Below, piece after piece: positions 6,506 to 58,780 of a DNA stretch of 64,000 nt. This DNA is from Dolomedes plantarius. Lineage: Eukaryota > Arthropoda > Arachnida > Araneae > Dolomedidae. The position numbers and the translations under genes were made by a program. Numbering within the stretch: position 1 is the stretch's first letter; each line of letters begins with the position of its first letter. The notes below the pieces were generated by a model, which saw nothing but the letters and a program-made list of their open reading frames with translations, was not told the DNA's origin and made no database searches. The stretch spans positions 208,094,637 to 208,158,636 of the forward strand of contig OU015492.1 of assembly GCA_907164885.2 (NCBI GenBank), written 5' to 3'.

Positions 6506-7101
6506 TAAGAAACAGAACCATATAATTTCCTTTCATGAGTTATACATGGTGAGGAACAATTAATGAGTTGTAAATTTATGGTTTAATGCGATAACTAGCG
6601 ACACATATTCTCATTAAATTACCAGTGGGTTTAATAAATTCATTACGAATATCATAATTGAAATGGTTGTAAAAATCATTTTTTGTTTGGAGATATACAG
6701 CAACAATTCTAATCCATATTTTTCGTTAAACAAATTTTCATTGCCTTGATTTGCCATAAATAGAATTTTTCCCATAGATGTTTGAGACTAACTAAAACGT
6801 GTTAATTAGAACAAAAAAAAAATTTAACAGAAAAATATGTTAGTCTTCATTTAGTTTTAAGAGCAAAATATTTTAATCCCAAAACTGAAGTACTTTTATT
6901 CATAAAAATGAAACATATTCTAGGTCACTGCTGAATAAATTGAATTATGTTCGTAAGGGTATTAAGAAAATCACCCTTTTATTAAAAGTACTTTTAGATA
7001 TAAATATGGAACTTAGAATATGTAAAAATATACTTTTAACCCATGGGACCTAAATATTCGGGATTTAAGGTTTCAAACATATCATCCACTGAATATCTAT
7101 G

Positions 7102-7104
<3 letters not shown>
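6506..7104. other. AT-rich DNA, nothing recognised
   Basis: No coding potential or clear repeat was seen on either strand. Confidence 0.5.

Positions 7105-7190
<86 letters not shown>
7105..7190. repeat. (TA)n microsatellite
   Basis: A perfect TA tract of about 43 units. It supplies the TA target duplication of the element that starts at 7192. Confidence 0.95.
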
Positions 7191-7191
<1 letters not shown>

Positions 7192-7193
<2 letters not shown>

Positions 7194-8670
7194 GGGTGGC
7201 CATAATTAAACTGACAGTGCTCACAGTGTTCTGTAGCGCGATCTATTTGCGAGAATGACGCCACAAATTTTTAGGAAGATTAAACAAGACGGGGGGGACG
7301 AAGGATTCCGCAAAAAAATAAATTAGTTCCAAAAGTCACCGCTAGGGGAGTATTTGGCGCTGTGTAATAGAAAATAGAGTGTTAACAAATGCAAATTAAT
7401 ACGGAATAAAATTACCTTTTATTATGCACATTTTCTTATTTAGTTCAAGTGCAATATGGCAACACTTTTAAAAAAGCGTAAAATCTACATAAACACCGAT
7501 AAAGTCTCGTGATCTGCAATATCACGTATGCTGAGCAGAAGAAGAAGTTCTTTATTCAAATTTCACGTTACATCCATTGGCACAGTGCCAGCTGCTGGGG
7601 TTTTAAAAGGCAATGTGTTACGTTTCGAATCAATCGGATTGAAAGTTTATGTTCAATGTCTCCTTCTTTAGTCGAGCGTGCGTTACTGGTCAAATTCTTT
7701 TACCTCAACCAGTACAACCCGTCAGCCGCTCATCGTGCTTTTAGAACCCACAAACAAATGCGTAAAGGTAACGGTCCTGTGTCAGTTAATGGGCTAAGTG
7801 CAATGGTTGCGACGTTTGAGAAAACAGGTTCTCTGAAGGTTCAGTCAGGCAGAGGACGAAAACCTGTACCACAGGATACAATCGAAGCAGTTGCCACGGC
7901 GATTGTCGACAGAGGACCAGACAATATTGCTGCCACATCTAGCGCTCGTGGATTAGCTCGGAATTTGGATATGCCTTACAGTACGGTATGGAAAATCTCA
8001 CGAAAGATTATCAACTTCTATCCGTACAAGATCAGCCGTGTACAGGAGTTACTGTACCCCGACCATGATAAGCGATTGACTTTTGCTCTCACCTTTCTTG
8101 CCAGAATGGAGGTGGATGATGCTTGGCCGTGGAAAATCTTATGGGGAGACAAGGCCCACTTTTACCTTCATGGAACTGTGAATACCCAGAACTGCCGAAT
8201 TTGGGATGACAAATCACCACATGCAGTCACAGACCACATGCAGTAACACATTGCCTTTTAAAACCCAAGCAGCTGGCAATGTGCCAATGGATGTAACGTG
8301 AAATTTGAATAAAGAACTTCTTCTTCTGCTCAGCGTACGTGATATTGCAGATCACGAGACTTTATCGGTGTTTATGTAGATTTTACGCTTTTTTAAAAGT
8401 GTTGCCATATTGCACTTGAACTAAATAAGAAAATGTGCATAATAAAAGGTAATTTTATTCCGTATTAATTTGCATTTGTTAACACTCTATTTTCTATTAC
8501 ACAGCGCCAAATACTCCCCTAGCGGTGACTTTTGGAACTAATTTTTTTTTTCGCTGAATCCTTCGTCCCCCCGTCTTGTTTAATCTTCCTACAAAATGTG
8601 GCATCATTCTCGCAAATAGATCGCGCTACAGAACACTGTGAGCACTGTCAGTTTAATTATGGCCACCCGG
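7192..8670 (+). mobile_element. Mariner/Tc1-like element with ~430-bp terminal inverted repeats
   Basis: The left arm (7192-7620) and the right arm (8244-8670) are near-identical inverted copies, starting CCGGGTGGCCATAATTAAAC and ending with its complement. TA flanks both sides (7190-7191, 8671-8672). Arms of this length are exceptional, since Tc1/mariner inverted repeats are usually 20-200 bp. Only about 620 bp separates them, filled by the 5' part of a transposase gene. The whole looks like an internal-deletion derivative. It sits inside a TA tract and is followed at once by a second palindromic element. Confidence 0.9.
7656..8246 (+). pseudogene. Mariner-like transposase, C-terminally truncated
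   Basis: From the ATG at 7656 about 196 residues are open: MSPSLVERALLVKFFYLNQ with an N-terminal helix-turn-helix, a GSLKVQSGRGRKP linker typical of the second DNA-binding unit, and RGLARNLDMPYSTVWKI. It ends just after the first catalytic-aspartate motif (ILWGDKAHFYLHGTVNTQ, about residues 165-182). The frame then runs into the right inverted repeat and stops at 8244-8246, so the second and third catalytic acidic residues are missing. Relatives I know of are about 350 residues. The retained part could still bind the inverted repeats, acting as a potential competitor rather than an enzyme; that is inference. An in-frame ATG further upstream lies inside the left arm. Confidence 0.8.
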
Positions 8671-8689
8671 TATATATATATATACCGGG

Positions 8690-8729
8690 TTCGATTACGA
8701 GTTCAAGGTGATTTCATAATTGATACTTG

Positions 8730-8777
<48 letters not shown>

Positions 8778-8781
8778 CTTG

Positions 8782-8825
<44 letters not shown>

Positions 8826-8829
8826 CTTG

Positions 8830-8875
<46 letters not shown>

Positions 8876-10449: not shown

Positions 10450-12278
10450 GTGAGTTCATTGTTTAGTATATACATTACCTTAATGATAAAGGAAACAGTG
10501 AACTGGTTTATATAATTTTTTTTGAGTTTAAGCCCTTAAAAGCATTTAATTCTATTTAGAATGACACTGTTAAATAACAAAATGTACAAATTAAAAAAAT
10601 AATTAAAAAATTGTGAGTAAGGGAATTAATTATGCCTATTGGTAATTCAGTTATTCATACATTCATAACTGCATTGCCAAAGGCAAAGCTTGAAATCGAA
10701 TTTCATACCATTATCCTTGATTAAGCTTTTATTTAAGTATAAACTCTTTATAAAACTATTTTTTTTGTATCTTTTAGTTACAATTATAGTTACACATAAC
10801 ATGAATGTATTTATTTAGGTTTCTTCCACATTAGTTCAAATAACTTTCCTATTATATTAGAAAATTATCAAAATATAAGAAGTTCAAAGTGGAAATTTTA
10901 CGTTACTATGCATTTATTTTACAGTCAAAAAGAAAATGAAAAAAAAAGAAAAAAATCAAACCTAGAGTTCAATTTCTTTTAAGTTTTCCTTGCTCTTTAT
11001 CCTGACAAATGATTTCAATATTTATCCTTGTCTATTTATTTGCACTTTTGCATGACTTCTTTCGCTACTTTTAAGCCGAAAAGCTTGCATATAAGTTTAT
11101 AGGAACGTATTGATTCATTCTTTCTTACTCAGATTTTGCTAAAAGTCAATATAGTTGCCTCGAGTTTGCTTTACTTTGATATTTTTCAATCTAAAATATA
11201 CTTTGCAGTAAAAATTACCTTTCGTATTTACATTAAAAAAATCCAATTCGCTTATAAAAAATGTATCTTATGTATTTCCCTTCCCTTTGTCGAAATCTTT
11301 CTTAAAGTTATATAAATATAGCTGAAGCAGTGTATTCGTGTCTTTAGATGAGAAAAAATACTTTTTGCCTATAGTGTGAGAGAATAATTCAATACAGATA
11401 AAGTCGTATTATCTAATTCAATACAGAATTGTTGTAGAGATGGGAAATCTTGAAGCATGTTACGATATCGTTCTGATCGGTCGTCTAATAAACAAACAAA
11501 CAAACAAACGAAATATATTTCGAAATGGGTTTCAAATCCAAATTTTAATATAGTTCAACTTATATCTGATCACAAGCCATATCTAAAAAAGTATTAGTTT
11601 GGCCAATATAGGTGAATTCAAAGACTTTATATTTTCACATAAAAGGTTTTATTTTGGAATTACAACGAATTGAGTCAGAATAACTATTTGAACGTGAGTA
11701 ACTTGTGACATTTGTCGAAAATAATTGAATTAAACGAAAAGATATGTGACACTTCTGAAAAAAATTAAATACTTCATAGCGAAGCGTAAGAAAGAAAATA
11801 TCAGTTTAAAAATCAAAATATATCATAAAGTAAAATGATAAGAGCATCTGTTTAAGACGTCCACACCACAGTAAAACTTTAATGAGTATTCTCTTTAATA
11901 TTCCTAAATCTTAGGGTTCTATCTTACTTTTTTCAAAATATTATATTTTACTATAAATGAATAGAAGGATACTAAAACAATGTAAAAATGTATCGTTGTC
12001 CTAATTGACGAATCACGTAATTTACATTTCCCATTTTTTACAGAATGAACAACAACAAAAAAAAATATTCGACAGTGAAAAGATAAATTATTGACATTTA
12101 CAGAAGATCGTTCGCACTTTATTTAAACGATTTTGATGGTTACGTTTTAGGAATAAATGCTGTATCTTTTTGCGGCGATTTGCTTCTATCTGATAGCCAT
12201 GGTTCTTGACAATAGCTCTAGCTCGAATTTTCCATGAAAGTAAACTTTTCTTAGTACTGTCATGTCAATTTTACCCCA
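10450..12278. other. AT-rich, intron-like DNA
   Basis: No coding exon or transposon seen. A short (AAAC)n microsatellite lies at about 11489-11508. Confidence 0.5.
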
Positions 12279-13661
12279 CTACTTTGATATAAGTAAATGA
12301 TAAGAAAATCAAAGAAAAGGGATAATTTATTTCAGAGAAAAAGGCAAAAGAACGGAGGAGTTAATACTCCGTTGTCCCCCTCTAGCGCGAATGCACGATG
12401 CGATACGATCGGACATTGAGTCATACAAGTTCTGTATGATGTCTTGAGACATTTCGGTCCATATTTGCTGTAACCTTGCCTCTAGTTCGTTCAAACTCGT
12501 GGGATGCCGAGTGGGATGCCGTCCCAACGACGAACTCGTCGTTGGGACGACGAGTTCGTCGTCCCAAATGATCCCAGATATGCTCGGTTGGAGACAAATC
12601 TGGGGATCGGGCAGCCCAAGGAAGGGTAGTAATAGTGCGGAGACAGTCTTGTGACACTCTTGCCGTATGAGGCCGAGCATTGTCTTTTTGAAAAATGGCT
12701 CCTTTGAGCCGTTGCATGAGTGGCAACACATATGGTTGCAGGATTTCATGAACATACCGCTGGGCTGTCATGGTGCCACGGAACAATACTAGGGGTGATC
12801 GTGTATTGTAGGCAATGGCACCCCATACCATCACACCAGCTGTGGGAGCGATGTGTCGCTGTACAGCAAAGGCAGGATGAAGCGTTCACCACGGGCTCTC
12901 CACACACGAACACGATTGTCATCACTGCCGAGATTGAATCTGGATTCGTCGCTAAAGACGACCTGGTTCCATTCCGCTGCAGTCCAGTTTCCTCGTGCGC
13001 GGCAAAACTCCAAACGGAGGCGTCGATGGGTGGGCGTCAAGGGCAGCACACGTAATGGGCGCCGCGATACCAACTGCCCTTCCGCCATGCGCCTTCGTAT
13101 GGTTCGAAAAGACACAGAGGCCCCTAGTGAAGGTGCTACCTGTGCCTAGATGGCGGCCGATGAAGCAGTTGGCTGTACGCGTGCATTTCTTACGATGTGG
13201 CGGTCTTCTCGACGACTGGTCTGTCGAGGGCGTCCTGAGCTTGGTCTTCGTGTACATGACATCTCTCGGGTCCACTGGTCCCAACACCTCCTCACAACAC
13301 AATCAGAGCGGCCTAATTGACGAGCTACTCGCCTAGCTGACCACCCAGCTTCCATCATCCCGACGATTCTCCCCCTCTCAAACTGCGACAGCAGCTTATA
13401 TTGTCTTCGAACACGGCGTAATGGCATGTCTATCTCAGCTCTTCCTTTGTAAATGATTCAGCACACTCAAACAAGCTTTGGTTGCATGTTTTATACTCCA
13501 CAGAGTACGATGTTCAACGCCCTTTACCGGCTATACGTAATGCGCAATCACGCTGCATTTCTAATCATTTGCATATCTCCCCGACATGTACCTTCATTGC
13601 AAGTTTCGTTAAGATCCCGCAATTATTTCTTGGTGCGCTAATTTTTTTGTCCATGAGTGTA
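12279..13661 (-). mobile_element. Tc1-like element, copy 1, left end missing
   Basis: The right terminal repeat (ttcttggtgcgctaat, T run, gtccatgagtgta, followed by TA) is present at about 13627-13661. Homology with copy 2 stops on the left at about 12279 (actactttgatataagtaaatg), before the terminal repeat. It contains a nearly complete but broken transposase on the minus strand. Confidence 0.85.
12327..13427 (-). pseudogene. Tc1-like transposase, frameshifted, with a palindromic insertion
   Basis: Read leftwards: an N-terminal DNA-binding part (MPLRRVRRQYKLLSQFERGR, with RRVARQLGRSDCVVRRCW), then a frame change near 13146, then the first catalytic aspartate (QVVFSDESRFNL), a second frame change near 12834, WGAIAYNTRSPLV, the second aspartate (KDNARPHTA) and the third acidic residue (SPDLSPTEHIWDHL). 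Just after that, at about 12501-12560, the sequence holds about 40 bp of extra palindromic DNA absent from copy 2, which shifts the frame again. The C-terminus RSINSSVLLPFSLK matches copy 2. All three catalytic residues are visible but not in one frame. Confidence 0.85.
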
Positions 13662-16506: not shown

Positions 16507-17266
16507 CACTCATGGACAAAAAAATTAGCGCACGAAGAAAGAGTCGTCAAAATGAAACGAAATTTTACATACGTAATGACTACTTTGATATAAGTAAATG
16601 ATAAGAAAATCAAACAAAAAGATAATTTATTTCAGAGAAAAAGGCAAAAGAACGGAGGAGTTAATACTCCGTTGGACCCCTCTAGCGCGAATGCACGATG
16701 CGATACGATCAGGCATTGAGTCATACAAGTTCTGTATGATGTCTTGAGACATTTCGTTCCATATTTGCTGTAACCTTGCCTCTAGTTCGTTCAAACTCGT
16801 GGGATGCCCAAATCGTCGTCCCAAATGATCCCAGATATGCTCGATTTTAGACAAATCTGGGGATCGGGCAGGCCAAGGAAGGGTAGTAACAGTGCGGAGA
16901 CAGTCTTGTGACACCCTTGCCGTATGAGGCCGAGAATTGTCTTGTTGAAAAATGGCTCCTGGGAGCCGTTGCATGAGTGGCAACACATGTGGTTGCAGGA
17001 TTTCATGAACATACGGCTGGGCTGTCATGGTGCCACAGAAAAATACTAGGGGTGACCGTGTATTGTAGGCAATGGCACCCCATACCATCACACCAGCTGT
17101 GGGAGCGATGTGTCGCTATACAGCAAAGGCAGGATTGAAGCGTTCACCACGGGCTCTCCACACACGAACACGATTGTCATCACTGCCAAGATTGAATATG
17201 GATTCGTCACTAAAGACGACCTGGTTCCATTCCGCTGCAGTCCAGTTTCCTCGTGCGCGGCAAAAC
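16507..17266 (-). mobile_element. Tc1-like element, copy 2, right end missing
   Basis: The left terminal repeat (CACTCATGGACAAAAAAATT then agcgcacgaagaa) is intact and preceded by TA. Homology to copy 1 then runs to about 17266 (gcgcggcaaaac) and stops inside the transposase gene. It is the same family as copy 1 but truncated on the opposite side. Confidence 0.85.
16627..17266 (-). pseudogene. Tc1-like transposase, C-terminal two thirds
   Basis: A single open stretch of 154 codons (16627-17091) carries WGAIAYNTRSPLV, the second catalytic aspartate (QQDNSRPHTA) and the third acidic residue (SPDLSKIEHIWDHL), and ends RSINSSVLLPFSLK. Upstream, in another frame, NWTAAEWNQVVF-type sequence leads into the first aspartate region before the truncation at about 17266. 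The N-terminal DNA-binding domains are missing. Unlike copy 1 it lacks the palindromic insertion, so it shows the ancestral reading at that site. Confidence 0.85.
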
Positions 17267-17690
17267 TGTGCCTTTCAGAATCGAACTTTTGAGTGAATGA
17301 ATTAAAGAAGCTGCTTGAGATATGCTAATTTTGGTATACGCGCGTGGTATAAATACCCAGCAGCTTGATTAATACAGAAGTTGAAAGAAGGTTTTGTTAA
17401 GGTTGATAGATAAGCGAGAGGGAGCTACGAGGTAAACAGTTCTAGGTGCTATCCTGCGCTAGTGCTTAGGAGGCCCAAAGTTTACGTGGCAGTACTGCTG
17501 GTTTGACTCTCTGCTGGTTTGTGAGGATTTGCAAAGTGTATTTCTATTGAATGTTAATATATATTCTGTAGAAGTAGTACGTATGCTTATTGCTGCAAAA
17601 GCAATTTCTATATGTGCAACGAATTTAATAAACATTGTTTCATGTATAAACTGTGTTTGTATCAAATTCATTTAGAGTGCCACTTCAAAT
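17267..17690 (+). mobile_element. LTR-like block with TATA box and AATAAA
   Basis: It starts TGTGCCTTTCAG exactly where the Tc1 copy is cut. A TATA box (gtggtataaatacc, about 17345), a GC-richer leader and AATAAA (about 17628) appear in the order expected of an LTR. The end, near tatataca (about 17698), and any target duplication could not be fixed. The missing part of the Tc1 copy does not resume after it. Confidence 0.35.
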
Positions 17691-18891
17691 TATATACACC
17701 CAAGTCTGGGTAGAAGTGAGCTATTCTCTATAAAGTCATATCTAGTTATAAAATTTTAGACCGATTTAAAAAATTTATATTATTCGTGTAATTTTTTAAT
17801 ATAGTTTCTTCTCTTAAGAAATTATTCATCTTTACCGTCAAGTGATGAATCATAAATGGAATATCTAAGAAAGAAGAAATTTCACGAAACAATTGACCAT
17901 TGTATGAAAGAATCAGTATTCAAAATAAACTATGGTTAAAAAGTCCATGTTAATTTGAAATTTTTAGCATAAAGCACTTTAATACCGGCTAGTTTTTTAA
18001 AAGAAATAATTTTCTCCCTGAAATTAACAGTATATCCTACAGCGCTGGTTCCAAGAACAAAATTCTTAACTCTTTTTTAATCTGTATTATATCGGTTGAA
18101 AAATATTCAAACACTTACATTAGAAAATATTCCTTTTCACAATTTTACCAACTCTAACAATGTTTTTCTGACAGGCTTTATAGTATTACATAAGATAAGA
18201 AAGTTATATAACCTGAGGTAAATAGAACTGCTTTTATCAAAAATTTCTCCTATGTAAAGGGGAAAATACCCAATAAATATGTAAAGTATAATAAAATATG
18301 TATAGCACGAAAGAGCCAGAACACGCTTTTCTTAAATGTGCAGAGAGTACGTCCCAAGCACGTTATTTAAAAAAAAAAAGCGTTTTATGTTAATCGCATC
18401 ACTCACTTCCGGTAATAACGTAACTGAAAAAATCTTAAATTTTCGTACAAAATCATGAAAAAAAAACATTGTGATTTTAATAGTTTTAATGTCATGAAAC
18501 TAAATGTTTTATGTTCAGTAGTCCGGAAAGTATTTTTTTTCTTCTGTTTTTAAATATCACATAATTTTAGCGATTACATAGTCATTTTTCAGTACATGGA
18601 CATTGTTAACAGCTAGTTTAAAATTACACTAATGTAAAAAGGAATTAACAAGTGCCATGCATTTCGCTATATCACCTATGCTTTGAATATTGGTTTATTT
18701 AATGCACATATTATCTAATATCTAAATGATTGCAATTTTACTAGATAAAAATACGCATCTTTGCTTAGAATTTTTTAAATCTAGTAGAAAAAATTATCAA
18801 TTTGTTATAAACTGCGATGAAGAGTTGTTCTCTAAAAGCATTTAGTGTTCTACATAAAGTTTTAAATTGCGGCCGGGACTTAGCCTATAAA
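17691..18891. other. AT-rich DNA, nothing recognised
   Basis: No coding or repeat signal was seen. Confidence 0.5.
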
Positions 18892-18893
18892 TA

Positions 18894-19918
18894 CAGGGTT
18901 GACACCTATATCCATTAGACCCCTAAACGGTGACAGTTAACTTCTAAACGATGACAGCTTAGGCCATAAAGTTGGTGTCTAGGTATAGTAAAAATGCTAT
19001 GCGCTACTCGATGAGACAACTTACAACGCCATCTATCGGTAAATTTTTAAATTAGCGTTTTTATCTCAAAAATGGTAGAAGATACGAGAAAACAGTCAAT
19101 TACAAAGTTGTTCAGCTTCATCGATTTCGCAAGTAGAGACACCTTGTGCACATTAATAATTAAAACAGAATGTAGAAAACGAACATTCATTTGGTCACGA
19201 TTTCGAAAATTGTCATGTCATAAAGCGTGGATGTTGCACAATGTGCAGCAGGAAATCCAGTCCAGAGTGCAAATGTGTATAGTGGATAATGAAGAGCATT
19301 TTCAGCAGCATAAATAAATGATCCTGCAGATAGGGAATTTTTTTCCAATGCGGAGGCACTTGTCGTGAGACATTCGCCTATACCACGCCGCAATTTTACT
19401 GCCCATTTTATAGTGGGGGCACCATATAGGCGGACAGCATTAGCCCCTATGAAAGGACGACACGAAAGGAGGCATTTTTCGTGGCGCGACGCCAGGATTC
19501 GATCTGAGCACCCTCAGCACCGAAAATCAGCGCGCTGTACCACTGGGCCGCCACAAGCCCAGATAGGGAAATATTTCAGTTTCTTTCCTCCACTCTTTAT
19601 GACATGACAATTTTCGAAATCGTGACCAAACAAATGTTTATTTTCTACATTCTGTTTTAAGTATCAATGTGAGCAAGATGTCTTTACTTACGAAATCGAT
19701 GATGCTGAACAACTTTGTAATTGACTTTTTTTTTCCGTACCTCGTACCGTTTTTGAGAAAAAAAAACGCTAATTCAAAAATTTGCCGATAGATGGCGTTG
19801 TAATTTGTGCCAACGGGTAGTGCATAGACTTTTTACTATACCTAGACACCAATTTTATGGCCTAAGTTGTCACCGCTTAGAAGTTAAAGGGGGTTAACGG
19901 ATATAGGTGGTAACCCTG
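18894..19918. mobile_element. Fold-back element with ~335-bp inverted arms carrying a SINE
   Basis: The left arm, 18894-19231, begins CAGGGTTGACACCTATATCC; the right arm, about 19588-19918, is its inverted copy, ending with the complement of CAGGGTTACCACCTATATCC. TA borders both ends (18892-18893, 19919-19920). The arms differ by scattered substitutions, so the element is not recent. The 355-bp core holds a minus-strand SINE (19337-19553). No transposase is present. Confidence 0.85.
19337..19553 (-). repeat. tRNA-headed SINE
   Basis: On the minus strand it starts GTGGCGGCCCAGTGGTACAG. The B box is GATCGAATCC-like (complement of ggattcgatc, about 19494-19503), and the tail contains CATAGGGGCTAATGCTG, then AAAATGGGCAG, CGACAAGTGCCTCCGCATT and a short A-run. 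The order matches the SINE at 21291-21518 along its length. Confidence 0.85.
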
Positions 19919-19920
19919 TA

Positions 19921-21290
<1,370 letters not shown>

Positions 21291-23466: not shown

Positions 23467-23831
<365 letters not shown>

Positions 23832-23881
<50 letters not shown>

Positions 23882-30566: not shown

Positions 30567-30577
30567 ATATATATATA
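30520..30577. repeat. (TA)n microsatellite
   Basis: It borders the LTR at 30578 and contains its TATA target copy (30574-30577). Confidence 0.95.
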
Positions 30578-31003
30578 TGTAGGACGGTGTCTAGGGGTAA
30601 GTAACTTTACGAAAAGAATTATACGTAAGAAATAAAAAGATTAATATCTAAACTAACATTTTATTTACTTTTTAAACACATAAACAAAAGACATCACGCT
30701 ATTTACAATTTACAAAATTACGAGGAAGGTAAATTAAGGTTTTACTACAGAGCATGGTTCACCTGTGAGATGGGGACTCCGAAATATCCCAATTCGTTTA
30801 GCGAATTCGATAAAAACACGACGCGAGGAAGAAGGCACGACATTACTCGTTCATGTCCGCGGGGGGTCTGCGAGTGAGCTCCTAATGCTCTCCGAAAAGG
30901 TGACGTCACGCGCGCGCAAAGCTTTCCTATTGGTCGCTCAAGCCCAACGGAATAAAATTCGTTCAGGTCGGAGTCTCCATCTCTCACAAATCAATTTTCT
31001 ACA
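30578..31003 (-). repeat. 3' LTR of the gypsy element
   Basis: It ends in the 5-bp inverted pair TGTAG...CTACA. Contains TGACGTCA (about 30901-30908), a perfect CRE-type palindrome, and an inverted CCAAT box (attgg, about 30930). Confidence 0.9.
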
Positions 31004-31249
31004 AGTTCGGCCAGCCTGGAATCACTGACCTCAGTGATCTGACTTTACATAAAACGATTGGCCTAAAACATCACTAAATAAATGTACATCAAAATCTCCG
31101 AAATGATTTAGATATGAGAAATAACCATACAATTCGCGCAAATGAATTACAATGAGGAAATACAATAAACAAAAATAAAATAAAAACACAGTAAACAATT
31201 ATGAATAAAAAGAAAAAACATTAAATCCCTCATCCTGGTGAGTAGGATT

Positions 31250-32690
31250 TCATTAGATCGGCAGACGAGGAGGTCAATCTAGGACCCTCGTGGTTACCTA
31301 CTTTCTCTAACTCGTATCTATCTCTAGGCTTTTCTCGATAACTCTATATGGTCCTAAAAATTTAGGCCTTAGTTTCAACCCTGTTCCAAATTGTGTTCTT
31401 CGGATGACTACTAGATCTCCCTGCTGATACTCAGGGGCCTTCTTGCATTTCTTATCGTAAGTTCTTTTTATTTTCAGCCTGGATCTTCTGAATGTTTCTT
31501 TTAGCATCTTGTCGTAATTGGTTTCTTTGCTCTGGAAATTCTTCCACCATCTCTTCCATTAGCAGATTTTTTAGGTGAAGGTCCTCCTTATTTCTTATGA
31601 TGACGCAGTTAATAGTTCAAATGGAGACCATTTAGTACTTCGGTTGGAGGTGCTGTTTAGAATTCTTTGCAATGGGTCTACGAATGTGTACCACTTGGTA
31701 GGATCGGCGATGGACATCTTGGTCAAAACAGGGATAAGAGTTCGGTGGATTCTCTCCACTTGACAGTTTCCTCGCGGTACGCCAGTGGTGATCTGAAGAT
31801 GTTGGATGTTCTCTTCGGTACAATAGTCACTAAACACTTTGGAGATGAAAGCAGAACCGCGATCTGTTATTATTCTTTGGGGATTGCCGAAAGTCTTTTG
31901 TTGCAATTTCAATTTATCGAGGGCATCTTCTGCGGTGGTAGATCTTACGGGATACAGCCAGGTGAACTTCGTGAAGGCGTCGACTATTGTGAGGATATGT
32001 TGGTACCTTTTGTTGGTAGAGGGCATAGGACCAATGAAATCTACGTGATAGGTGCTTAACGGTACATCTTCTTTCGGAATAGGGTTTAGGAAACCTTTTT
32101 TACCGCTCTTTCTGTTGGTTAAAATACACGGTACACAGTTAACGATCACGTTTTGCACTTGTCTGCTTAAATTAAGTATGAAAAATTCTCGTTTAACTAT
32201 TTCTTCTGTTTTTGCAGCTGCGAAGTGTCCTTTCTCATGAGCTAGCTTGATTAGCTCAGTTTGCATATCTCTTGGTACTACTATTAATTCACGGCCATCT
32301 ACGTATTTGTATAATATTTCGTTTTTAATGAAGAAGTCTGAAGTAGGGTTTGTTTCAATCAGTGATTTAAAATTTTGAGTGTTTTCGTCTCCTTGTTGAG
32401 CTCTTTTCAATCTGGCGGTGAGAGTATCGCTTGTAATTATGGCGACGGGGTATCGGCTTAAAGCGTCTACATGTTGCATTCTCTGGCCGGGTCGATGCAC
32501 AATTTCGTAATCATAATTTTCAAACAGTAGTGCCCATCTCGCTATACGAGTAACTAAATCTTTTTTGTCCATAGTCTTTTGAAAGCTGAACAGTCCGTTA
32601 TGATTTTGAAATGTTGCCCTAGAAGGTAGATTCGAAATTTCTTTAAAGCGGTGACAACAGCAAGAACTTCCAGTTCATAGCTACTGTATT
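31250..32690 (-). pseudogene. gypsy RNase H end and integrase
   Basis: The longest open stretch (31595-32572, 325 codons) starts at the end of RNase H (ARWALLFENYDYEIVHRPGQ, DALSRYPV). It continues with the zinc-binding HHCC domain (HEKGHFAAAKTEEIV ... CVPCILTNR), then the catalytic core with its first aspartate (YHVDFIGPM), second (IITDRGSAF) and glutamate (QVERIHRT). After a break at about 31590 the C-terminal part resumes (RRSRLKIKRTYDKKC, GDLVVIRRTQFG, KFLGPYRV) and ends near 31230. Integrase inserts the cDNA into host DNA; all catalytic residues are present. The break between core and C-terminus is a frameshift. Confidence 0.9.
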
Positions 32691-34260
32691 TCTCCTCGGC
32701 TGGAGTAGTTTCTGCGACATGTATTGAACAGGGTGTAATTTTCCGTCATCCGCTTCCTGGAGCAAAACAGCGCCATATCCTTGTTGGCTTGCATCGGTGT
32801 GTAGTCGGTCCTTTTCCCTTGCTGAAAAATGCTTAAAACGGGACTTTCAGTTAATAGTTTCTTGAGCTTTTCGAATGCTTCAATTTGGGCTTGTTCGAAT
32901 ACAAATGGATTGTCTTTTCTTGTTAGATCCCTCAGAGGTTTCGCTATTTTAGAGTACGCGGGAATAAATTTTCGAAAGTAGCCGGTAAGTCCTAAAAAAC
33001 TCTGTATCTGCTTGACCGTTGTTGGCACTGGGAACTTCTTGACGGCTATCGTCTTAGCAATTGATGGGCGTATTGTTCCGTTTTCGACGACGTGACCCAA
33101 AAATTCGACTTTTCTACTTAGGAATCGACATTTCTCAAATTTAATTTCTAAGCCATACTTCGAAGCAACTTCAAACACTTTCTTTAGTTTTTCTAAACCT
33201 TCTTCTTCATCTTTTGCCGGAATTATCAAATCGTCCATGTAAATTACTACAATACCTTTTCGCATTAGTTCTCGAAAAAATACTGTACACATATCTTTGG
33301 AATACGCTGGGACTAGTGCTTAGGCCGAAAGGTACTTTATTGAACTCGAATTGTCCGTCCGGAACACGAAGGAGGTGAGATGTTTGAAGTCTTCATTTAC
33401 ATCGACATGGAAAAATCCATTTCTCAAATCTAACGTAGTGTACACCTTGGCTTCTTGGAGTTTATCTAATACGTCTTCTATCAACGGCAATGGAAACGAT
33501 CCTTGACTAATTTCCGATTCAACTTTCTGTAGTCCACACACAATCTAGTGGTGCCATCTTTTTTCTTGACTAGCACAATTGGACTCGCATATTCGGATGA
33601 GCTTGGTCTTATAATTCCTTGTTCAAGCCATTCGTCGACTTGCTTGTTGACTGCTTGGTTCTCGGTAAAGGATAAGCGACGTGCAGGCTGGTAAACCGGT
33701 ATATCATCTTTCAAAATAATCCTCATGGACACGTTTGTCGTTTCGGTCTTATTTGGCTCATAGTTGGAGATCAATTCAAACAGTTCTTTTCTTATACGTG
33801 GATTGCTAACATGTTTGACTTCAATTTCGTCTTCAGTTTTCGCTTCGTATACTTGCGTATGCATGAACCAAGTTTTATCTTCATGTTTACGGAACTGAAT
33901 ACTTTCTTTGTCGAAGAAGACGGAGGCTTGTTCCAAAATATCTGATCCGATTACTGCCTGAATTCTAAACACGGCGTAGGTACGATGTGCCACGTGAGGG
34001 AATATTCTTTTCGATCCAATTAAATTTTCCGTTGGAACGACCCTTTTGTTTTGACTTCGTACTTCCCTAATCCAGATAACACTACTATGTCTTTCGAGAG
34101 TTCTGAGGGTTCGATTATTCCTTCGCACATATCTTCACGAATGAGTGTCGCTGAACTGCCGGTATCTATGAGAGCTTCAAAAGTCTTATTACCCATGGTT
34201 ATTTTCTTTGTTTTAACTCTTCCTTGAGAGATTCGTGAGCAGACTTGAACCGGAGAGCTT
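32681..34260 (-). pseudogene. gypsy protease, reverse transcriptase and RNase H
   Basis: Leftwards: an aspartic protease with LIDTGSSATL (about 34148-34172), a connecting region (34128-33481 open), and the reverse transcriptase: LCVDYRKLNRKLVKDRF, PLPLIEDVLDKL, TLDLRNGFFHV (first aspartate), and after a frameshift near 33300 VIYMDDLIIPA, the YMDD active site, then FLGLTGYFRKFIP. RNase H follows (DYTPMQANKDMALF in a shifted frame) and breaks again near 32690. It makes cDNA from the element's RNA. At least three frameshifts separate blocks that are each well conserved. Confidence 0.9.
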
Positions 34261-34284
34261 ACAGATTTATTAATGTTTGGGTTT

Positions 34285-35394
34285 TTGGGTCGCTTTGTAC
34301 AATCTACGGCATAATGACCTGGTCCTTTGCAATAGCTACAGATTAGTTGCTTATTTCTTCCGGCGTAAGGAGTTCCGTTCGATTGAAAGTATTTTTTTCA
34401 TGCCTATTGTTCCCAATTTGGAAAGTTCAGGTCTTCGAGAATAAGTATCGTTAGATCCTCTGGCTTCATATTTTCCTTTAGCGAATGAGTTGGATGACTT
34501 CGGTTTTAATGTTCTTCGGACATCTTCATATTCTTCAATTTTTTAGCTAGTTCGGAAGGTGAGTTAATAGTAGACCATTCGTCTAGAAATGTTGCTGAAA
34601 CTCGTAAGGTGCTTTCTTCTTAATTTGATCGGCTATAATTAACTCTCGTAGTTGATCGAAGGTTTCTATTTTCAACCTGGAAGTCCATCCGTCGAAATAC
34701 GTCTGCAGTTCGTAGTGGAAATCTTGCCATGTTCGCTCATCAGATTTTTGGGTGAGATACAAATAGTTGACGAAGTTTTTCCGGAGACAAACTTAAATCT
34801 TTTCAATAGTAAATTCTTGACGTGGTCGTAATCATTACATTTGTCCGCTGGTTCTCTTGCGATCAGATGAGCAACGTCAATGGGTATCAATCCTATCAGT
34901 CTCTGTACCCAATCTTTCTTCGGCAAAAATATCAATTCTGCGTGCCGTTCAAATAAGGTGAGGTTCAAGCTGATGTCATCCTTCATATTAAACTTATGGA
35001 AAGTTTCGTGAATCAATTTATTCGGCGCTTGGACGTTTCGGCGTTGTTCGTCGTATTGACACCTCTGTTGAGCCTGTATTCGTAATTTCTCGAGTTCATG
35101 TCCTCGCTGTTCTCGCTTCTGTTCAATTTCCTCTATCTTCTGCTTCTCGGCGTAATTTTTCTTCTTTTTCTTCTGCTTTTCGGCGTAATTTCTCTTCTTT
35201 TTCTTCTGCTTCTCGGCGTACGCGTTCCTCAACTATGCTATCGATCAGTATTTGACATCTTCCTCTACGTAATTTGGACTTTTCACGATCAGTTCTTTTA
35301 TTCGAAGTTTAGTTGAACCCTCTTGGATACTTAACGACAATTCTGAGGAAAGTTCTATCAGGTCTTCCCTTTTCTTAGAGAGAAGAAATGCCAT
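34285..35394 (-). pseudogene. gypsy gag, frameshifted
   Basis: ATG at 35394 gives MAFLLSKKREDLIELSSELS for about 49 codons before a frameshift near 35250. A coiled-coil follows, encoded by three near-identical repeats (35130-35225: REAEEKEEKLRRK type); the matching frame switches within it. The capsid-like part is open from 35232 to 34672 in one frame (FHKFNMKDDISLNLTLFERH, PADKCNDYDHVKNLLLKRF). A CCHC zinc knuckle, CSYCKGPGHYAVDC, lies at about 34296-34345. Gag packages the RNA into particles. Frame breaks fall in short A/G-rich runs, so single-base indels are the cause. Confidence 0.85.
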
Positions 35395-36477
35395 TTCGTA
35401 TAAAATAAATCGGTAGTGGTAACACAGAGAACAAATTTAATTTAAAACTTAGTTCAATATTTCTTCAAAACCTTATTCTCAACGTGAGAAATTTATTTAG
35501 TCGCACTTAAAAAAAAACTCTTGCTTCAACCAGGAAGAAAGATAAAACCGTGAACAACAAAATGCAATCTCTTACGATATTCGAATAAAAACAAACAAAC
35601 TATTAGAAAACTTCTGAAATCCGAAAATGGCACTAAAACATATGCATAACAACTTTTCAATTATTCACAATAACCAATTATTCATAACAACTTTTAAAAA
35701 ATATATCCCGTTCTGGTTTCAAAAGATCAATAAAAGAACATTATTTGAACTCATGGTTTCACACAAAATGCAAAACATCCTTTCTCAGCATTAGACTAAA
35801 CAGAAGGAGAAATATAACACCTGCGCGACAGTTCGCCTAATGTCTGCGAACGAGCGGACATGATTTTTCCATTTCATTACTCAACCTGTTACATCTGACA
35901 GCAAACAAACACTCTGAGGAAAAACTTTAGCTTTTCAATGTTCTATATCGAACAAGGCTGTATACCATAAAATGGGTTAATTGATATCAGAAAAAGGTTT
36001 AAATATTTAATATAGACTATTCTTAATTTATAACATGGAAGATAACATATTCAAATGAAATTTTCGACCACTTATATATTTCATACAACGTAATTGTAAT
36101 ATCTCTCCAAATAATATGACTATGTTAATACAATCAATGTATTGGCGATTGTTCTTTGGGCGTTGTTTCCTTGGCTTAATAATAAACATCACTGACCTGG
36201 CGATGGCGATTTCTCGGCGATTGTTGTGCTGTCCCTCTTTCGCTGGCGGGCTGATTTCTTTGGCGAATCTGTTAGCTGCTTACTTAAAAAAATACATTAG
36301 CATAGGACGTTGGTCTGTGAGCGAAAACCGAAAAAAGGTGAACCCGAAAGGAAAATGCTCTTAGTTAAAAATAAAATTATTTCATACCGAAAACGAAGTA
36401 AAAGTATAAATTATTTAAACCGACACGAAAGTAAAAGTAAGGATGTTCCTAGGCAAATGCCTAATGTAAGGAAGCAG

Positions 36478-36501
36478 GTTTTAATCCGGGCCGGGGCCCC
36501 A
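36478..36501 (-). promoter_or_regulatory. tRNA primer-binding site
   Basis: Two bases inside the 5' LTR the minus strand reads TGGGGCCCCGGCCCGGAT, the complement of a tRNA 3' end including CCA. Complementarity seems to extend on into a T-arm-like GGTTTTAATCC. Base 73 would be C, which fits eukaryotic proline tRNA, but I cannot confirm the tRNA. Confidence 0.65.
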
Positions 36502-36503
36502 TT

Positions 36504-36921
36504 TGTAGGACGGTGTCTAGGGTAAGTAACTTTACGAAAAGAATTATACAAAGAAATAAAAAGATTATATCTAAACTAACATTTTATTTACTTTTTAAAC
36601 ACATAAACAAAAGACATCACGCTATTTACATTTCCAAAATACGAGGAAGGTAAATTAAGGTTTTACTACAGAGCATGGTTCACCTGTGCGATGGGGACTC
36701 CGAAATATCCCAATTCGTTTAGCGAATTCGATAAAACACGACGCGAGGAAGAAGCACGACATTACTCGTTCATGTCCGCGGGGGGTCTGCGAGTGCGCTC
36801 CTAATGCTCTCCGAAAAGGTGACCGTCACCGCGCGCGCAAAGCTTTCCTATGGACGCTCAAGCCCAACCGGATAAATTCGTTCAGGTCGAAGTCTCCATC
36901 TCTCACAAATCAGTTTCTACA
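36504..36921 (-). repeat. 5' LTR of the gypsy element
   Basis: 418 bp against 426 for its partner, differing mainly by single-base losses and gains. The CRE palindrome is broken here (gtgaccgtcac). Confidence 0.9.
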
Positions 36922-49688: not shown

Positions 49689-50099
49689 TTAATTTGTGTG
49701 AAACATTTTGAAACAATTTCTTTGTGCATGAAAACATAAAAATACGTCACATTTCTCACAAAATGAAGTAGTTTTGTATGAACAACCTTCCAATTTGCAT
49801 CTCTGTTGCTTTGGACTTCTTTCAATCATATGATTTAGCCCATCATATCTTGCATCTTTGCAAGGCCTAACAGCTGGATTTAATTTTTTACTTTGAGGGT
49901 GGCAGCGTTCTTGAAATTTTCTAATTAATGGTCGGATTTTCCATATTTTGTCATTTGCATCATGTACAACATTTACATCAACGATATGAAGACAATTTCT
50001 TAATTTTTCAAAATGGTTTTTCGTTATACCTATTTTTTCAACTAATTCGATAGTTGTTGAGGGAATTATATTCAATATTACTTTGTCAACTACTAACAA
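49689..50099 (-). pseudogene. piggyBac-like transposase, core deleted
   Basis: 136 codons open on the minus strand. The first half (ITKNHFEKLRNCLHIVDVNV, DKIWKIRPLIRKFQERCHPQ) matches the region before the catalytic core. It is joined directly to the C-terminal cysteine-rich zinc finger (QQRCKLEGCSYKTTSFCEKC, DVFLCFHAQRNCFKMFH). The DDD catalytic core that belongs between them is gone, yet the frame is kept. The fusion would be a DNA-binding remnant without catalysis. Start and any promoter are unknown. Confidence 0.75.
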
Positions 50100-51934: not shown

Positions 51935-51942
51935 TCGCAGAT

Positions 51943-52483
51943 TAGGGTGGTTCGAAAAAAACTTTTTTTTAAATTTCACATCGCTAGAGTGCAAAAAAGT
52001 TGCAATTGGTATAGACTTTAAAAAAGCACTAATTATTATTTTTTTATTAATTTGTCTTCCGGTCGCGCAATGCCATCGAAGTTAGCAAAAAATTGTGAAA
52101 AACCTTAATTTTTCATATTTTTTTTAAGCACGCCAGATGGTTTTAATTGCGTTCCTATACCATGAATTAACTACTAAAAGTATGTAAAATCAATATATTT
52201 GCACTTATTATACATTTGTTTCATATCTTCCAGTCGCGCAACATAGTACAAAATGTGTAAATTTAGTAGTTTTTGCAAAATTTCAAAGTTTGACTGTTTA
52301 GTACATTTTAATCATACGACTTTTGGAGATGCTATGGTTTAATTCTATTAGAATATTATATTAAAAATCCAAGCATATAAGATAAACTTTGATATTTAAG
52401 TGGAATTCGGTCGCGCAGCTTCGTCAAAAACAGCAGAGTAGCCTACCTGGACAGAGAGGCGAGGCGTACGTGACGAATGCCAG
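51943..52483 (+). repeat. Left inverted arm with three GGTCGCGCA motifs
   Basis: Motifs at 52061-52069, 52232-52240 (AGTCGCGCA) and 52409-52417. The outermost is 118 bp from the element end. Confidence 0.9.
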
Positions 52484-52902
52484 CGATGCGCTCGCAGCCG
52501 GTAGCAGCCATTATCGTTGTCTGACAATTTTGTTGTTTGACAATGTTTCCTTTCAGATAATTTAGAAATTTTCTAATAGTAAATATTTGGTAATTTTTTT
52601 GTTTCAATATTCAATTGTTGGTGCAGCTCTTCGCTCATTTTGTTTACAAAACGACCCAGAACTCACCACGGGGAGGTGGCTGCACTTCGAGTTCCACCCA
52701 CATCCTACCCAACTAACCATCCAATGGTGTGTTATTTACAATAATGGGTGTGTTATTTACAATATGTACAAATTTATTTCACTTTCTCTCTCTTTATGTT
52801 TCCTTTCTAGTCTTTATCTATCGATAAACATCGAAATTCGGATTTGTGTGAAAAAGTTGGCATCGCTGAGTGTGACAGTAATGTGGTTCTAATATAGCCG
52901 TC
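52484..52902. other. Element core, non-coding side
   Basis: Between the left arm and the end of the gene; contains a small direct repeat (gtgttatttacaata twice, about 52728-52762). Confidence 0.6.
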
Positions 52903-54303
52903 TCAGGAACTGTGTCCACACACTTTACTTGAAGTTTCGGTCACTAGCTTAACGCATCTTTCAACTGCCTGTATATGGCATGGGAAAGCATCTATAATTA
53001 TAAAAGGCTTGAAGTCATTGCTCACATACTGTTTTATCTCTTCATTAGTCAATGTTCTTAACAGTGGACGAAGAGTCAGTGTACTGGTGTTCCATTTGAT
53101 AATTTCGGTATAGTCTTTAGCTTCAAAGTTTAGGTTTGGTGGTTTAAAGATTCTGATAAAGTTACTTTCAGATATTGCTTGCTTTGCCTTCATGAAACGC
53201 CTAAAGCCCAGCTCTCGGATATGGTCTCTTTCATCAGTTACCATAGCCAAAAGTAAATTATCGGGATGGTCAAAGTAAGCATTCCGTTGTAAAACGGGAT
53301 CAACCACTTGAAGCGGTTCTTCTGGTAAGTACCTTGTAGATTCAATAGTTTTGTAAACATGTCTAGGCCCATCTGTGAATTTGCGGTTTATTTTTATGGC
53401 AAACCACATAGGCATATAACATTTGAGAATGAATGTGACAATTTCTCTCAGATTTTCAGAAGGTCTTGACACACTGATGTAGAGGCGCAAAACTCGGTTT
53501 GCAGTAGTAAGCCATCTTGAATGTGACATTGGGCCAGGATCACGTACTACAAAGTCTTCTGAACAATGTCCTGACTTGATGACTTCTGATATCTCAAGCA
53601 AGTACAATTGGTCCTTGCTAAGAATACGCTTGTCAACTTTGGAATCTCACAATCAATAGGATTAAAATCAACAACTGGTAGTCTTTCACAATCAGATAGG
53701 GCCTTTCCAATCGGTCAGGAATATCCTATTGGGCCTGTTGTATTTCCATCTAAGTGTTGGAAAAGGTGGCGGAATGGTAGTTCGTTGTAATGGAGAAGAC
53801 AAATACTCCATTGTAGAGGTCTTCCCACATGTATCTCTAATTGTCGAATTACACTATTTCTTAAGCCTGTATTAATAACAGTACCGTCACATCCAACAAC
53901 TTCCAATATTTCATATAAAAAGCCATTTTCTAATAAATAAGACGTGATGCTTTTGGCTATGTCGGTTGCTGAGCTTGAAGAAGGACAAGTGTCCTATGTA
54001 AGTCGAGCCTGGATCCTGAATGAAAGAGTAATGCTCCTTCTTATAGGTTCTGCGAAAGTGTTTTCTGCCAGGTTTTTCAATTAACAATGCATTGTCGTTT
54101 CGTCCATCAAAGTAAAGACCATAAATTTCTAAACTTATATCACTTTGCAAACTAGCTCTCACACAAGTTTTTTCTCTTCGGACTTCACTCTTGTCTACAA
54201 CATAAGAAGTATCTGATTCATTAATCAACCCAACATCTTGCAGTACACTTGAAGCAATAGCAGCCGTAGCGCTATTGCTTCAAGTGTACTGCAAGATGTT
54301 GGG
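52903..54303 (-). pseudogene. Gene of the unassigned element, N-terminus lost
   Basis: Leftwards: SSVLQDVGLINESDTSYVVD (from about 54260), KPGRKHFRRTYKKEHYSFIQ, a frame change near 53911, LEVVGCDGTVINTGLRNSVI, LPFRHLFQHLDGNTTGPIG, another change near 53715, then an open stretch of 234 codons (53607-52903): RDPGPMSHSRWLTTANRVLR, PMWFAIKINRKFTDGPRHVY, VVDPVLQRNAYFDHPDNLLL, RELGFRRFMKAKQ and FPCHIQAVERCVKLVTETSS. I recall the same ordered blocks in unnamed multicopy proteins of many arthropods. Conserved D, E, H and C residues (GCDGT, NELPFRH, PCH) could form a catalytic site, but no known triad is evident. The N-terminal part is replaced by a hairpin and short repeats. Confidence 0.75.
54229..54303. 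repeat. 33-bp perfect inverted repeat at the gene's broken 5' edge
   Basis: 54229-54261 is exactly complementary to 54271-54303 with a 9-base loop. The left arm is native coding sequence (encoding about SSVLQDVGL); the right arm is an extra copy. Confidence 0.9.
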
Positions 54304-54364
54304 TCCGATACGCCAAAATCCGATACGCCATATCGGTCACTCGTCACGCATCGATCACTCGTCA

Positions 54365-54907
54365 CGGCGTGGCATTCGCCACGTACGCCTCGCCTCTCGG
54401 TAGTAGGCTACTCTGCTGTTTTTGACGAAGCTGCGCGACCGAATTCCACTTGAATATCAAAGTTTATCTGATATGCTTGGATTTTAAATATATTATTGTA
54501 ATAGAATTAAACTATAGCATCTCTAAAAGTCGTATGATTAAAATGTACTAAACAGTCAAATTTTGAAATTTTGCAAAAACTACTAATTTTACTCATATTG
54601 TACTATGTTGCGCGACCGGAAGATATGAAACAAATGTATAATAAGTGCATATATATTGATTTTACATACTTTTAGTAGTTAATTAATGGTATCTGAACGC
54701 AATTAAAACCATTTGGCGTCCTTAAAAAAATTATGAAAAATTAATGTTTTTCATAATTTTTTGCTAACTTCGATGGCATTGCGCGACCGGAAGACAAATT
54801 AATAAAAAAATAACAATTAGTGTTTTTTTTTGCGTCTATACCAATAGCAACTTTTGTGCAATCTAGCGATCTGAAATTTAAAAAGAAGTTTTTTTCGAAC
54901 CACCCTA
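54365..54907 (-). repeat. Right inverted arm with three GGTCGCGCA motifs
   Basis: Motifs, as TGCGCGACC, at 54432-54440, 54609-54617 and 54780-54788; the outermost is 119 bp from the end. Confidence 0.9.
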
Positions 54908-54915
54908 TCGCAGAT

Positions 54916-58463: not shown

Positions 58464-58715
58464 TAAGGCGGGGAAAGGCAAAGTGGTGTAAGTCAGTAAG
58501 TCAAGTGATTAAGTCCAAAGCGTTTCACTGCAAACACTACAAACAATTCCACTGTCAATTGAACAAATTATAATTCATAATAATTATTATAATATTGCGA
58601 ATAATAATTATTTGCAATTCCACTATAAATTGAAAATGGAGATTACATTTTTGGCCTCAAGTAAAAAAAGATGAAAATGTTACTTACACCACTTTGCCTT
58701 TCACTACCTCATATT
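58464..58715. mobile_element. MITE, copy B (inverted relative to copy A)
   Basis: Ends: left aggcggggaaaggcaaagtg then gtgtaagtc; right gttacttacaccactttgcc then tttcactacctca. Its reverse complement matches copy A through the interior. TA/CA microsatellite is on the left, (TA)n on the right. Confidence 0.85.
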
Positions 58716-58717
58716 AA

Positions 58718-58721
<4 letters not shown>

Positions 58722-58775
<54 letters not shown>
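58722..58775. repeat. (TA)n microsatellite
   Basis: Lies between MITE B and the LTR at 58776. Confidence 0.95.

Positions 58776-58780
<5 letters not shown>

Follow-up and report, generated by a model that had tools for sequence, protein, structure and literature searches.

Background

Transposons of the hAT superfamily (Hermes, hobo, Ac, Buster) duplicate 8 bp of target with a preference for T at position 2 and A at position 7, and the P element, which has an RNase H-like DDE core with an insertion and differs in having a THAP finger, makes an 8-bp duplication as well. The single transposase gene of hAT elements encodes an RNase H-like core with a helical insertion and motifs in the order D-D-CxxH-RW-E, and repeated boxes lie in subterminal positions. 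Hermes has the target consensus nTnnnnAn (PMC2803484) and BED domains that bind the subterminal repeats (PMC10368747); the terminal inverted repeats (TIRs) of hAT elements are given as 10-25 bp long (PMC3942097). According to PMC7780238, P, Transib and RAG1 have helical insertions too, that of P being a GTP-binding one, and the IS256-type transposase ISCth4 has an RNase H-like core with a CxxH-bearing helical insertion. Here, a stretch of 64,000 nucleotides from the spider Dolomedes plantarius (assembly GCA_907164885.2, contig OU015492.1, positions 208,094,637 to 208,158,636), referred to as the window, was found to contain an element that shares these hAT features, core and insertion by prediction, between far longer TIRs. 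Very probably, this element is a non-autonomous, internally deleted cut-and-paste DNA transposon, and its protein a DDE transposase built like those of hAT elements (Hermes).

Boundaries, genomic copies and target site

The 2,965-bp element (51943-54907 of the window) is flanked on either side by TCGCAGAT. Its 19-bp tip TAGGGTGGTTCGAAAAAAA, which starts at 51943 on the plus strand and at 54907 on the minus strand, had two matches in the window versus none in 100 shuffles, and the arms of 540 and 538 bp are 92.98% identical to each other. The perfect 8-bp duplication, the inverted ends and the arms of about 540 bp described in a first-pass annotation of this DNA were all confirmed.

The ends and duplication of the window element are beyond chance, as both ends recur at 34 other loci of this genome and the 8-bp duplication is perfect at 28 of these. 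These loci were obtained by searching the 2.78 Gb assembly with the element's internal 2 kb and scoring 40 of 1,976 first-look candidates, the window included. A total of 39 other loci were fetched, which makes 40 distinct loci with the window; L003 was dropped because it represented the same place as L041. As the best-scoring ones, the 40 copies are biased towards the subfamily of the window. Both ends could be placed in 35 of them (window included), and a search for 8-bp duplications in these copies found a perfect duplication in 29 and one with a single mismatch in four, including L006, which was so counted although part of an arm is duplicated within it. The copies show the nTnnnnAn target preference of hAT elements; among the 29 perfect duplications, position 2 was T in 25, position 7 was A in 26 and position 3 was a purine in 28. 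When six microsatellite-like sites were omitted, these counts were 20/23, 20/23 and 22/23, respectively. The insertion at L022 also has a gapless empty-site paralogue, 83% identical, in L048.

Full-length relatives and the broken window copy

A protein search of the genome, in which 58 of 18,576 first-look candidates were scored, yielded 62 matches, from which eight near full-length loci were picked by hand for length and spread of identity. Five of these eight (L042, L043, L044, L047 and L049) are bounded by TAGGGTGG-type ends and flanked by 8-bp duplications, which supports the earlier proposal that placing the protein inside a delimited element identifies it as a transposase. One end each of L047 and L049 carries a variant, TAGAGTGG and TAGGGCGG, respectively. 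The duplications are, in order, ATGTACAA, ATCGTCAA, ATAGATAT, ATGGTCAT/GTGGTCAT and ATATCCAT; four are perfect, one has a single mismatch and all five fit nTnnnnAn. The five elements are 3.1-3.9 kb long, with long TIRs and one protein of about 770 residues. The matched frame has no stop in L043 and L044 (782 and 748 codons), which may be autonomous, and contains three, one and six stops in L042, L047 and L049. D338, D412 and E720 are kept in all eight near full-length loci, the CxxH pair in seven and RW in five. As a separate observation, L045 and L048 are related to each other (92-95% identical) and have a left TAGGGTGGTTCG end in common; their homology ends jointly about 140-150 bp past the gene, near A-rich sequence, and no right end was found for them.

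The gene of the window element lies on the minus strand in alternating frames relative to a full-length homologue, P0002, with two frameshifts, two in-frame stops and loss of about the first 280 residues. Of the single gene with five ordered blocks described earlier, the blocks are therefore real, all five on the minus strand, but the single open reading frame is not. The remnants downstream of residue 380 overlap from residue 495 on (Table 1). Compared with the 3,854-bp L042, about 1.0 kb is absent between L042 bases 2317 and 3320, with 94.1% and 92.6% identity on either side; the missing part includes the N-terminal coding part. The region of the deletion junction aligns in all 35 both-ended copies, in pieces for L030 and L039. 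In all 35 the downstream frame has a stop just before residue 495, which marks a shared frameshift, and in L042 this frame is open across the same place. Because the gene is disrupted in the window element and both deletion and frameshift are common to all 35 copies, none of them supplies its own enzyme; this suggests that a single defective copy was multiplied through an enzyme provided by another source.

The same broken state could mean that the element has captured this protein, as a passenger or host gene, and that the true transposase is found elsewhere. This is very improbable, as in all five full-length elements (45-64% protein identity to P0002) no open stretch exceeds the frame of this protein, those of at least 100 codons outside it reaching at most 152 codons, and the protein has a predicted transposase fold with invariant DDE residues.

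A family of unnamed arthropod proteins

At E <= 0.001, a read-through query matched 618 proteins; the following description is based on the 120 of these that were listed. Many of the 120 are about 770 residues long and none has a precomputed Pfam domain; those named by organism come from beetles, a moth and a spider and are annotated as uncharacterised, hypothetical or unnamed. This supports the association with unnamed multicopy arthropod proteins that was made before any search. Among 86 full-length members of the 120, which were aligned, D338, D342, D412, N417, C441, H444, R536, W537, E720 and R721 are invariant, and 61 of these members were scanned singly against Pfam. The N-terminal domain is predicted (mean pLDDT 85.4) to contain helices together with a Cys-rich part and had no PDB match at E <= 0.001.

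Because named homologues exist in several insect orders and in a spider, curators could have come across this family, and it could quite conceivably carry a name in Repbase or Dfam already. No transposase Pfam model was found to cover the protein, however, and none of six protein motif strings of the family and no description of it were found in the literature searched, a search that did not extend to Repbase reports and most subscription journals. Three texts with the 12-base tip, among the 20 listed of 142 matches, were unrelated by title.

Predicted fold and relation to hAT and other superfamilies

The predicted model has the RNase H-like DDE core that the first-pass annotation had suggested looking for (D338, D412, E720), with a large helical insertion after the CxxH strand, and RW. 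The motif order D-D-CxxH-RW-PxxxxAxER is that of Hermes, and the structural alignment extends to Hermes residue 609. In a VIA-align ranking of the predicted structure, Hermes stood well above the next family. The statement that no hAT signature is visible held for sequence profiles but failed for three hAT-like properties: predicted fold, order of motifs and target site.

Several findings weigh against a hAT-like transposon. Of the genomic copies, five of 40 have no complete end pair (L023, L026, L029, L033, L041) and two of 35 no clean 8-bp duplication (a 9-bp repeat in L025, none clean in L028); three of the eight near full-length loci (L045, L046, L048) show one such end only. The fold is a predicted one, and the top two rows of the Foldseek list were ISCth4, an IS256-type transposase. 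In sequence, the hAT dimerisation domain (PF05699 / IPR008906) was found in none of the 61 scanned members at E <= 0.1, versus four of four hAT controls, all from a Hermes search, and zf-BED, looked for by sequence only, was likewise found in none at this threshold. The lone hAT-associated match was DUF4371, which is also present in a hAT protein, in one of 61 members at E 0.097, a chance level for 61 scans. A profile of the 86 sequences scored 23.0 against a Hermes-clade profile (probability under 1%), and the profile of residues 300-768 scored 22.6, with 13.8-22.4 for 20 column-shuffled decoys of that part. Moreover, R340 stands where Hermes has W182, and the TIRs, at 540/538 bp in the window element and 290-571 bp in its five full-length relatives, are far longer than those of hAT elements. 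The non-significant profile alignment nonetheless placed PCHTQAVER on PASSAASER, that is, E720 on Hermes E572.

These observations could indicate an independent superfamily on a level with hAT, P and Transib, with which it would share only the RNase H and helical-insertion architecture, the 8-bp nTnnnnAn target being converged or retained. The profile-profile link to hAT fails for this family but was obtained for all 13 of the other hAT proteins compared, which matched the Hermes clade at a probability of 99.3-100 (an easy control, as they came from a Hermes search), and the long TIRs and the N-terminal domain with no PDB match point the same way. Yet the distance by which Hermes leads the structural ranking, and a motif order and target site as in Hermes, make a separate superfamily a somewhat doubtful reading.

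A place among P, Transib/RAG or IS256-like elements is improbable. ISCth4 heads the Foldseek list and the P element (6pe2) is its fifth row (E 4.6e-3); the structure ranking leaves room for P and Transib, and helical insertions and the CxxH of ISCth4 (see Background) are features in common. Against this, the structural Z of ISCth4 was lower (10.9 vs 16.6) in the ranking headed by Hermes, the P insertion binds GTP, and hhalign against a single Drosophila P protein gave a score of 21.8 (probability 0.4%), that is, no profile link. No member of the 61 matched a P-type Pfam family at E <= 0.1, and Merlin, Novosib, Zisupton/KDZ and MULE transposase families did not appear in the Pfam-A scan of the 61, for which the presence of a Pfam model for each was unchecked. 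Overall, profile searches of the kind suggested in the first-pass annotation gave no significant link to hAT or P, and no transposase model.

A hAT-like element remains the preferred reading. Judged by its anatomy, the family functions as hAT elements do and has the same target choice, and it is placed as a deep hAT-like branch; it is not filed as a hAT member because the tests of sequence, dimerisation domain, BED domain and TIR length failed. Tentatively, it could represent an unclassified animal transposon group of superfamily rank that combines hAT chemistry and target choice with an unrelated N-terminal end-binding domain, a conserved ladder of TCGCGCA boxes, about 170-185 bp apart within very long TIRs, and an end layout unlike that of Hermes. 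Such a group, if real, lies behind hundreds of unnamed proteins.

End architecture and proposed mechanism

In six elements (window and the five full-length ones), TCGCGCA occurs 113-125, 283-296 and 465-484 bp from the ends, or at about 120, 290 and 475 bp. Exact boxes occupy 29 of the 36 places expected at three per end; the shorter TIR of L049 has the first two places only. Outside the elements there is one TCGCGCA in 9,616 flank bases and there are four in 61,036 window bases. TIRs compared pairwise across lineages (one each) are only 52-55% identical, and in the six aligned TIRs, tip excepted, no seven-base block is better conserved than the first box, with AAAAGTTG second and the second box third. 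This pattern suggests that the boxes are putative transposase-binding sites. The TIR start TAGGG presumably fits the hAT end consensus, which we take to be YARNG. The box spacing (about 170 and 185 bp) is near a nucleosome repeat in the window and L042-L047, as it is for the first two boxes of L049.

In the mechanism proposed here, the transposase would combine its RNase H-like core (D338, D412, E720) and helical insertion after the CxxH strand with a distinct, Cys-rich N-terminal domain, which would bind the phased TCGCGCA boxes while the enzyme binds the TAGGGTGG tips. The element could then be excised with hairpins on the flanks, as in Hermes, and the free 3' ends would attack the two strands of an nTRnnnAn target 8 bp apart, leaving the 8-bp duplication. 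The deleted derivative, having kept ends and boxes, may have spread in trans.

For many unnamed arthropod proteins, these results make a role as transposase probable and supply defined ends, a target site and a predicted active site, so that they can be annotated, masked and tested. Fold and target site can set an element beside hAT where sequence profiles fail, and other unclassified arthropod repeats may conceal similar branches. The even placement of the boxes raises the question of how a transposase recognises 500-bp ends.

Table 1. Positions of the parts of the transposon within the window
Feature	Position	Strand	Remarks
Target-site duplication, left copy	51935..51942		TCGCAGAT, 8 bp
Left TIR	51943..52482	+	540 bp, begins TAGGGTGGTTCG
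Box TCGCGCA, putative transposase site	52063..52069	+	~120 bp from left end
Box TCGCGCA	52234..52240	+	~290 bp from left end
Box TCGCGCA	52411..52417	+	~470 bp from left end
Transposase remnant, residues 495-768 of P0002	52816..53640	-	61% identity; stop 52903-52905
Proposed catalytic E720	52960-52962	-	within remnant 52816..53640
RW	53512-53517	-	within remnant 52816..53640
Transposase remnant, residues 380-503 of P0002	53613..53984	-	64% identity; stop 53715-53717
CxxH	53790-53801	-	within remnant 53613..53984
D412	53886-53888	-	within remnant 53613..53984
Transposase remnant, about residue 284 to 379 of P0002	53983..54270	-	
D338	54106-54108	-	within remnant 53983..54270
Perfect 34-bp inverted duplication	54228-54261 / 54271-54304		span 54228..54304; at internal-deletion junction
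Right TIR	54370..54907	-	538 bp
Box TCGCGCA	54432..54438	-	~470 bp from right end
Box TCGCGCA	54609..54615	-	~290 bp from right end
Box TCGCGCA	54780..54786	-	~120 bp from right end
Target-site duplication, right copy	54908..54915		TCGCAGAT, 8 bp

Other features of the window

Further mobile elements appear to be present in the window. Two copies at 12278-13009 and 16579-17267, 90% identical, are probably Tc1-like, with DDE_3-type remnants just under the Pfam cut-off. A probable long terminal repeat (LTR) retrotransposon spans 30575-36921, with direct repeats at 30575-31003 and 36501-36921 (95% identical) and, enclosed by these, minus-strand pieces of integrase and reverse transcriptase. A remnant at 49689-50099 has a sub-threshold DDE_Tnp_1_7 match, which we take to be piggyBac-type. 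Long inverted repeats at 7079-7621 and 8243-8837 (87%; span 7079-8837) overlap an open reading frame with a sub-threshold match to the DUF4817 helix-turn-helix and are perhaps another long-TIR element. Additional inverted repeat pairs were found at 18891-19231 / 19589-19921 (84%) and 23526-23834 / 58470-58776 (82%).
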